Below are positions 36,396 to 38,603 of a stretch of DNA of 64,000 nt, piece after piece. How positions within the stretch are numbered: the first letter of the stretch is position 1; the number at the start of each line of letters is the position of its first letter. Position numbers and translations under genes: made by a program. The notes beneath the pieces are model-generated. The model was not told where the DNA came from. It did no database searches and was given only the letters and a program-made list of their open reading frames with translations. Origin of the DNA: Novosphingopyxis baekryungensis DSM 16222. Lineage in GTDB: Bacteria > Pseudomonadota > Alphaproteobacteria > Sphingomonadales > Sphingomonadaceae. The stretch is taken from positions 1-64,000 of the forward strand of contig NZ_ATUR01000006.1 of NCBI RefSeq assembly GCF_000420305.1. The letters run 5' to 3'.

Positions 36396-36504
36396 GATTG
36401 TCCTTTCTGGAACGGTTGATCTGGAACGTGCCTAGGGCAAAAGTTTCACCAGTGGAATGGTTGCATGCTGGACCCGTCACCTTTGCGGACTATGCTGCCA
36501 AGCC

Positions 36505-37068
36505 ATGACCGATCCTATATATTTTACCGGCCGCTGTCTTCTCGCCTTGCCCGGCATGGGCGATCCGCGCTTCGAGCAGGCGGTGATCGCGATCTGCATG
36601 CATGATGAAAATGGCGCAATGGGGATCGATCTGGGCCGCACCGTCGATGGTGTGCACGCCGCCGAGGTGTTCGTCCAGCTTGGGCTGGAGAGCGCGCAGG
36701 ATATGGGCGAACAGCCGCTTTTTCAGGGCGGCCCGGTGGAAATGGAACGCGGTTTCGTGCTGCACAGTCTGGATTATAGCCGCGGCGATACCGTCGACGT
36801 GGCCGGCCGCTGGGGCCTGACATCCAGCCTGACGATATTGGCGGACATCGCGGCGGGCAATGGCCCAGTCCGTTGGCGTCTGGCGCTGGGCTATAGCGGC
36901 TGGGATGCCGGCCAGCTGGAGGAAGAGCTGACCCGCCACGGCTGGTTGATCGCCGATTGCGACAAGGAGGTGCTGTTCGCAGCGCCGCCCGAAGAGCTGT
37001 GGCAGGCGGCTTATCGCAGCGCCGGGATCGACCCGGCCATGCTTTCGAGCGGTTTCGGCGCGGCATGA
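36505..37068 (+). CDS. YqgE/AlgH family protein
   Basis: The 187-residue protein has the YqgE (DUF179) pattern: FTGRCLLALPGMGDPRFEQAVIAICMHDENGAMGIDLGR at the start, later QPLFQGGPVEMERGFVLHS and LGYSGWDAGQLEEEL. The family is widespread but its activity is unclear. The start at 36505 is chosen because this is where the family homology begins; an upstream ATG at 36457 adds unrelated residues. Confidence 0.9.
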   Translation: MTDPIYFTGRCLLALPGMGDPRFEQAVIAICMHDENGAMGIDLGRTVDGVHAAEVFVQLGLESAQDMGEQPLFQGGPVEMERGFVLHSLDYSRGDTVDVAGRWGLTSSLTILADIAAGNGPVRWRLALGYSGWDAGQLEEELTRHGWLIADCDKEVLFAAPPEELWQAAYRSAGIDPAMLSSGFGAA

Positions 37069-37088: not shown

Positions 37089-37108
37089 ATATAAAGTTTT
37101 CTTTATAT
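37089..37108 (+). promoter_or_regulatory. Perfect palindromic operator upstream of ahcY
   Basis: ATATAAAG-TTTT-CTTTATAT is a perfect 8-bp inverted repeat with a 4-nt spacer in an AT-rich pocket, 92 bases before the ahcY start. It is unlike the GC-rich surroundings. It resembles, from memory, AT-rich palindromes described for SahR, the ArsR-family SAH-responsive regulator of ahcY and methionine genes in proteobacteria. No regulator gene is visible here. Confidence 0.55.
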
Positions 37109-37199
37109 TTAAATCATTGCTCGTTATGCAGGGTGCATACAGACCGCGGCTACGCTGCGCGCGGAGAATTTTCACGCCTGCTCCCAGGAGACAAACGAC

Positions 37200-38603
37200 A
37201 TGGCAACCGCCACCCAGGATTATATCATCGCCGATCTCTCGCTTGCCGATTATGGCCGCAACGAGATTACCATTGCCGAAACCGAAATGCCGGGCCTGAT
37301 GGCGCTGCAGGAACGCTATGGTGATGACAAGCCGCTCAAGGGCGCGCGCATCGCCGGCTCGCTCCACATGACGATCCAGACCGCCGTACTGATCGAGACG
37401 CTGGTCGCGCTTGGCGCCGAAGTACGCTGGACGACGTGCAACATCTATTCCACCCAGGATCATGCCGCGGCCGCGATTGCCGATCAGGGCATTCCCGTCT
37501 TCGCCGTCAAGGGCGAGACGCTTGGCGAATATTGGGATTATGTCGCGAAAATCTTCGATTGGGGCGATGAGCCGTGCAACCTGATCCTGGACGATGGGGG
37601 CGATGCCACGATGTTCGCGCTCTGGGGCGCACGGATGGAAGCAGGCGAAAGCATGCCGGCACCGGAGAATGAAGAAGAAACCGAGATGCAGCGCGCGCTG
37701 AAGGCGTTCGTCGAGCGCAAGCCGGGCTATCTGACGAAAACCGTGGAGATGATCCGCGGCGTGTCCGAGGAAACCACGACGGGCGTGCATCGCCTTTATG
37801 AACTGAGCAAGTCCGGCAAGCTGCCTTTCCCGGCGATCAATGTGAACGATTCGGTCACCAAGTCGAAGTTCGACAACAAATATGGCTGCAAGGAATCGCT
37901 GGTTGACGGCATTCGCCGCGGCACCGATGTGATGATGGCCGGCAAGCTGGCCTGCGTCGCGGGTTATGGCGATGTCGGCAAGGGCTCGGCCGCGTCGCTG
38001 CGCGGTGCCGGTGCGCGCGTCATCGTGACCGAGATCGATCCGATCTGCGCGCTGCAGGCCGCGATGGACGGGTTCGAGGTCGTGACCATGGAAGAGGGCG
38101 TGAAGCGCGCCGACATTTTCGTCACGACGACCGGCAACAAGGACGTCATCACCATCGAGCACATGCGTGGCATGAAGGACATGGCGATCGTCGGCAATAT
38201 CGGCCATTTCGATAATGAAATTCAGGTCGGTGCCCTGGAAAACATGAAGTGGACCGAAATCAAGCCGCAGGTCGACATGGTTGAATTCCCCGATGGCAAG
38301 CGGATCATCCTGCTGTCCAAGGGCCGCCTGCTGAACCTCGGCAATGCGACCGGCCATCCCAGCTTCGTGATGTCGGCCAGCTTCACCAACCAGGTGCTGG
38401 CGCAGATCGAACTGTTCACCAAGCACAAGACCGGTGAATATGAGAATGACGTCTACGTCCTGCCCAAGCACCTCGACGAGGAAGTGGCGGCGCTGCATCT
38501 TGCCAAGCTGAACGTGAACCTGACCAAGCTGAGCGACGCGCAAGCCGCCTATATCGGCGTGTCGCAGGAAGGTCCGTTCAAGCCGGAACATTACCGTTAC
38601 TGA
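37200..38603 (+). CDS. ahcY: Adenosylhomocysteinase
   Basis: AhcY splits S-adenosylhomocysteine into adenosine and homocysteine, removing the product that inhibits SAM-dependent methylases. The 467 residues contain the [15 protein letters not shown] segment, the catalytic [17 protein letters not shown] region, the NAD-binding loop [10 protein letters not shown] and a C-terminal KPEHYRY. The form with the extra 40-residue insertion ([12 protein letters not shown] region) is typical of many proteobacteria. Ribosome site AGGAGA precedes the ATG. It has its own promoter region with a palindrome. Confidence 0.97.

Follow-up and report, generated by a model that had tools for sequence, protein, structure and literature searches.

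A palindrome upstream of ahcY in Novosphingopyxis baekryungensis as a predicted operator of the SahR regulon

The window considered here, the whole 64,000-nucleotide stretch of Novosphingopyxis baekryungensis DSM 16222 DNA that was analyzed, has a G+C content of 63% and carries ahcY, the putatively regulated gene for S-adenosylhomocysteine hydrolase (467 aa; 37200..38603, plus strand; TIGR00936 598.3 bits, cutoff 497.6; Pfam AdoHcyase). Upstream lies an open reading frame (ORF) of the YqgE/AlgH family (36457..37068, plus strand; Pfam DUF179), and the 131-base gap between the two genes contains a palindrome at 37089..37108, a predicted SahR operator to which no strand is assigned. Read directly from the sequence, this 20-mer is ATATAAAGTTTTCTTTATAT, an 8+4+8 arrangement, ATATAAAG-TTTT-CTTTATAT, in which both 8-base arms are perfect and the central TTTT is not palindromic. 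The first-pass annotation had described a palindrome perfect over 16 bases with a TTTT center, which we confirm, and had placed it 92 bases before ahcY; the distance from its end to the ATG at 37200 is in fact 91 bases. Also read from the sequence are a likely ribosome-binding site, AGGAG (37186..37190, plus strand), 9 bases 5' of the ATG, and a weak candidate ahcY promoter, TTGCTC-N15-TACAGA (37117..37143, plus strand), just 3' of the operator. A sigma-70 scan gave one match, over the ahcY start, and none near the operator.

Perfect 8-base inverted repeats with spacers of 0 to 10 bases are not rare in themselves, as the window has 19 of them, and this abundance is what speaks for an AT-rich palindrome that arose by chance and has no function. 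The repeat at 37089..37108 is the only one of that kind with at least 7 A/T per arm, and its earlier description as AT rich and set apart from GC-rich surroundings holds. The operator pattern with up to three mismatches is expected 0.00 times in the window (100 dinucleotide shuffles), and the exact 16-base pattern about 0.000015 times in the genome (independent bases, window composition). Against this expectation, the 3,063,956-base genome contains three perfect copies of ATATAAAG-N4-CTTTATAT, all at genes of the S-adenosylmethionine (SAM) cycle, and conservation across orders also contradicts a chance origin, which is so improbable as to be negligible.

The three exact copies lie 5' of ahcY, of metK, and of an ArsR-methyltransferase gene that heads metF and a two-ORF metH. 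The metK copy (C2:115063) is 26 bases 5' of the gene (TIGR01034 467.7 bits, cutoff 309.4), and the third (C7:106918) is 9 bases ahead of the ATG of a 356-aa ORF, sahR, after which metF (MTHFR, 317.8 bits) and then two ORFs that jointly span MetH follow in the same orientation. The 20-bp palindrome thus occurs within 350 bases upstream of SAM-cycle genes. The first-pass annotation had pointed to metH, metF, metK, and an arsR-type gene as places for further copies; those at metK and at sahR, heading metF and metH, were found, and among the genome copies none is directly 5' of metF or metH separately. If sahR-metF-metH is one operon, an assumption we make from strand and spacing, AhcY, MetH, MetF, and MetK would all be encoded behind the three sites. 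The core targets described for SahR in Alphaproteobacteria are sahR, ahcY, metH, metH2, metF, and metK (PMC4239095), and sahR, ahcY, metH, metF, and metK are all covered here, metF and metH by way of the cluster behind the sahR site.

With up to three mismatches, the pattern has four places in the genome, three of them exact, and the reversed control also has four, none exact. The fourth place (C4:111877, three mismatches), between TonB-receptor-like and lspA-like ORFs (named by eye), was regarded as a chance match. With a relaxed core, the search gave 22 places versus 38 for the reversed control, and because the control exceeds the real pattern we used only the three exact copies; a one-mismatch place at C2:215724, inside an rpoB-like frame (named by eye), was rejected. 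Two features of the regulated loci are unusual. MetH is divided between adjacent minus-strand ORFs (L006:1070-3682 and L006:3822-5135), both behind sahR-metF, into a homocysteine-methyltransferase part and a pterin/B12/activation part. A ten-codon frame, ATGGAAACTGGCGAGGCGGCGGTTTATGCGTAG (L001:1522-1554), opens immediately 3' of the operator at metK and extends over the start of that gene; it may be accidental, as operator-to-metK distances vary among relatives.

By its domains, HTH_5 (43.2 bits) and Methyltransf_11 (88.9 bits), and its 41% identity over the alignment with SahR of Ensifer aridi (45% over query residues 30 to 331), we identify the 356-aa ArsR-methyltransferase as SahR, the ArsR-type homologue whose presence the first-pass annotation had made a test of its proposal. 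In a 10-protein alignment that includes Ensifer aridi, the recognition-helix core QSQPR-x-SRH and the SAM/S-adenosylhomocysteine (SAH) motif D-x-GTGTGR are invariant, and the latter is thus intact in this protein. In the predicted structure (mean pLDDT 79.6, pTM 0.65), residues 27 to 97 contain winged-helix elements, with helix 68 to 80 positioned as the recognition helix; a long helix spans 118 to 154, and an alpha/beta domain begins at about residue 160. Foldseek with this model listed 50 matches, mainly SAM-dependent methyltransferases, at query TM-scores of 0.35 to 0.45. Sequence matches, alignment, and model agree in describing an ArsR helix-turn-helix joined to a SAM-methyltransferase-like domain, in a protein that is probably an ortholog of known SahR. 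If its start is the first ATG, the protein (L006:5839-6909, minus strand) has 27 near-N-terminal residues with no counterpart in the aligned relatives, and these fall in a low-confidence region of the model.

ArsR proteins commonly use AT-rich inverted repeats, and the genome has four HTH_5 matches (E up to 0.001), three of them besides SahR, which leaves room for the palindrome to be the operator of another ArsR-family repressor or of an unrelated one. Several observations argue against this: one perfect copy stands directly 5' of the ArsR-methyltransferase gene, which is alone among the four HTH_5 genes in having one of the genome places at its start; the contigs that carry the other three have no place with up to three mismatches; nine near-complete genomes that lack SahR also lack the exact pattern; and, as described below, recognition helix and operator covary. 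We therefore consider another repressor very unlikely.

In E. aridi LMR001, the pattern with up to two mismatches occurs in five places and the reversed control in none. Four of these places adjoin ahcY, metK, bhmT, and metH (NCBIfam) and the fifth is 46 bases upstream of the SahR match; they correspond to the five genes with SahR sites named in PMC8877191, as expected of the same motif. The motif match rests on this gene concordance. The E. aridi system shares the palindrome, exact at ahcY and with two mismatches at the other four genes, as well as the recognition-helix core and an overlapping target list; it differs in adding bhmT and in having a separate site for metH, whereas sahR, metF, and metH stand behind one site here. 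Raised sahR expression in an E. aridi sahR mutant suggests repression (PMC8877191), and taxon-specific substitutions in SahR motifs are already in print (PMC5343134). The alphaproteobacterial SahR regulon as described in PMC4239095 has in common with the present system a 20-bp palindrome, an ArsR-family regulator, and the core targets, and we see no essential difference between the two. SamR of Xanthomonadales is likewise a related ArsR-type regulator of methionine genes, but its motif is a 24-bp palindrome sharing ATC-N10-GAT (PMC4239095); on inspection, 37089..37108 has neither ATC nor GAT and does not fit that description.

The regulator is widespread in the order. Of the 396 genomes searched, 379 have a SahR match (E up to 1e-30) and 263 the exact pattern, compared with 2 of 396 for the reversed pattern among the rows listed. 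In the near-complete subset of 373 (completeness of 90% or more, contamination of 5% or less), a SahR match is present in 364 and the exact pattern in 251. The nine lacking a SahR match (G019, G030, G100, G128, G164, G219, G257, G293, and G325), which belong to four genera and were not corrected for kinship, have no exact copy. This contrast partly reflects genus: seven of the nine fall in g4 and g23, whose SahR-bearing members (nine examined: G025, G174, G232, G298, G307, G318, G375, and G394 in g4 and G352 in g23) have no exact copy either and carry diverged sites before sahR. With up to three mismatches, two of the nine SahR-less genomes have matches (two in G128, one in G293, all with three mismatches), level with the reversed control (one each in G019, G128, and G293). 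Among the eight incomplete assemblies that lack a SahR match, three (G095, G098, and G106) have an exact copy, which may be due to missing sequence.

Site and regulator are conserved together at the level of individual genes. We compared 21 genomes with SahR (this one included, mainly one per genus) and the nine without. A site with up to three mismatches lies 5' of ahcY in 16/21 SahR-bearing versus 0/9 SahR-less genomes, and 5' of metK in 18/21 versus 0/9, leaving 5/21 and 3/21 SahR-bearing genomes without the respective site; for G006 the upstream region of ahcY was estimated, since the match to the protein there starts at residue 183. When upstream stretches were shuffled, a site of this quality turned up in 3/1500 (ahcY) and 1/1500 (metK) cases. 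A metF match is present in 25 of the 30 genomes, and in 20 of these a site lies no more than 1,500 bases upstream of it; the five without comprise four SahR-less genomes and G025, with a diverged site at four mismatches. Five of the nine SahR-less genomes (G019, G030, G100, G257, and G325) have no metF match at E up to 1e-30, and loss of SahR and of the metF methionine branch may go together. At ahcY and metK of the nine (18 loci), a search for replacement RNA elements gave no Rfam match at the gathering score.

A broader sample of 80 named ahcY loci, with orders assigned from genus names, has a site with up to three mismatches in 53/59 loci outside Rhodobacterales and in 1/21 within that order. 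The latter fits the published scarcity of SahR there, with regulons in 2/15 genomes of Rhodobacterales compared to 7/7 of Sphingomonadales (Leyn et al. 2014, PMC4239095). The lone Rhodobacterales-labeled locus with the palindrome (L196) has an exact copy and comes from a metagenome bin; the bin label may be wrong, or the lineage may have SahR.

We conclude that the palindrome is very probably a docking site for SahR before ahcY. The first-pass annotation had proposed such an operator, and as a predicted site it is supported: neither an absence of copies at other methionine-cycle genes nor the lack of an ArsR-type SahR, which it had named as telling against the proposal, was found. To the joint reading, in which SahR represses ahcY from this operator and SAH induces ahcY, metK, and sahR-metF-metH, we assign a probability of roughly 0.95. 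SahR would be a repressor that combines an ArsR-type winged helix with a methyltransferase-like domain sensing SAH. Its dimer would bind the two half-sites beside the ahcY promoter and block RNA polymerase at the target promoters; accumulated SAH would bind the methyltransferase-like domain, SahR would leave the DNA, and ahcY, metK, and sahR-metF-metH would be induced together. We infer from orthology both the binding of SahR here and its release by SAH, and dimer binding, repression, and the role of SAH as inducer are also inferred. In Desulfovibrio, SAH reportedly releases SahR and acts as the inducer (Novichkov et al. 2014, which PMC8877191 and PMC4239095 cite).

In most relatives examined, the operator overlaps or contacts a promoter, and it does so differently at each target. 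We counted the pattern TTG[AC]NN-N16..18-TANN in flanks aligned on the operator; because the zones were chosen after viewing the alignments and the sequences are related, the shuffle numbers that follow are not probabilities. For sahR, 48 of 49 rows were kept (30 best-match loci plus 19 of the 20 metF loci with a site; the second copy of this genome was left out), and the first hexamer starts 10 to 4 bases ahead of the operator in 40/48 (shuffled flanks, mean 1.5, maximum 6), with TTGAC itself at that position in 37/48; at this distance the right arm supplies the second hexamer. At the 18 metK loci with a site among the 30 genomes, the first hexamer starts 40 to 25 bases ahead of the operator in 12 (shuffles, mean 0.2, maximum 2), so that the operator covers the start region. 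For ahcY it starts 0 to 12 bases past the operator, in 13/15 loci (of 16 with a site among the 30, G006 being left out and this genome being one of the 15; shuffles, mean 0.17, maximum 1) and in 43/50 named loci (shuffles, mean 0.6, maximum 5), these 50 being the ones among 80 with sufficient flanking sequence and, no more than 300 bases away, a site with up to two mismatches. The present genome conforms at sahR (offset -8) and metK (offset -31). Its ahcY has no match to the N16..18 pattern, the best candidate having a 15-base spacer, and how operator meets promoter there is therefore less clear than in relatives.

This geometry also bears on whether the inverted repeat functions in the ahcY leader RNA, either as a hairpin or within a riboswitch. 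The sequence could fold into an 8-pair, A-U-rich hairpin with a 4-base loop, and in other bacteria ahcY belongs to the core of SAH-riboswitch regulons (PMC4239095); an SAH riboswitch would likewise place ahcY under SAH control. It would differ from the present locus, whose leader matches neither the Rfam SAH nor the SAM-SAH covariance models and, in the window, no Rfam family even at E up to 1, in agreement, as far as Rfam reaches, with the earlier statement that control here does without a riboswitch. The candidate promoter lies downstream of the palindrome at most ahcY loci (the 13/15 and 43/50 above, this genome's ahcY not among them), so the palindrome would not be transcribed there, and at sahR it covers the core promoter in the same 40/48. 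An RNA element is thus extremely unlikely.

The sahR arrangement has a further implication. At the sahR loci examined (18 of the 30), the first in-frame start codon is 8 to 11 bases past the operator in 17, although taking the first start codon favors short distances. Another candidate start follows 17 to 39 bases past the operator in 7/17, and this genome's next is at 48; in the remaining nine it lies 57 or more bases away and falls within the conserved N-terminal domain. Together with a start codon this near, a -10 box whose end coincides with the edge of the operator points to a leaderless or very short-leader mRNA, which sahR may have, judging from these sequences.

Recognition helix and operator vary together. 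With SRH-type SahR, half-site positions 7 and 8 are AG in 91/100 half-sites and position 7 is A in 95/100 (50 genomes). With SQH-type SahR, the counts are 1/12 for AG and 1/12 for A at position 7 (6 genomes), with G or C instead. The counts exclude second copies from three genomes and also L063, in which no site was detected. Selecting sites for their resemblance to the consensus favors AG, and the covariation may represent one or two events, as the SQH genomes come from two genera. As a lead, the Arg/Gln change in the recognition helix (Arg73 here, Gln in some relatives) appears to track the operator base, and residue 73 would set base 7 of the half-site.

We lean slightly toward a joint reading of these patterns, in which a single operator sequence occupies three fixed promoter positions and residue 73 sets half-site base 7. 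At sahR the operator would sit between -35 and -10, with its right arm doubling as the -10 box of a leaderless or very short-leader mRNA; at metK it would follow closely after -10, and at ahcY it would lie directly against -35. If this is true, a single repressor would be able to control the steps of the SAM cycle with differing strength. The ahcY site is a well-supported, mostly ordinary member of the known SahR system, whose regulon in this order is already in print. What we add are the conserved, target-specific positions of operator relative to promoter, the possibly leaderless sahR, and the tracking of Arg/Gln with the operator base. Within the portions of the literature examined we found no account of SahR operator-promoter geometry (the word "promoter" is absent from the main text of PMC4239095), and a search pairing SahR with leaderless returned nothing on SahR by title. 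For N. baekryungensis, the probable control of ahcY is settled, and a palindrome spotted by eye can be linked to a SAM-cycle regulon and its regulator. Specific predictions of how SahR would read DNA and block transcription follow from the conserved operator positions and from the Arg/Gln covariation. Among 56 solved sequences matched to SahR by sequence, the best stretch spans one domain or the other, never both.

The SQH-type loci are L262, L263, L265, L266, L261, and L151, whose operators mostly have G or C rather than A at half-site position 7. A search for a variant operator of Q-type regulators before ahcY and metK of G025 and G352 found nothing within four mismatches of the outer 12 bases. 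These two genomes and G174 (g4 and g23) keep SahR with no site found before ahcY or metK; the sahR site is retained in G352 and G174 and diverged in G025, as if the regulon were shrinking to self-control before loss of the regulator.
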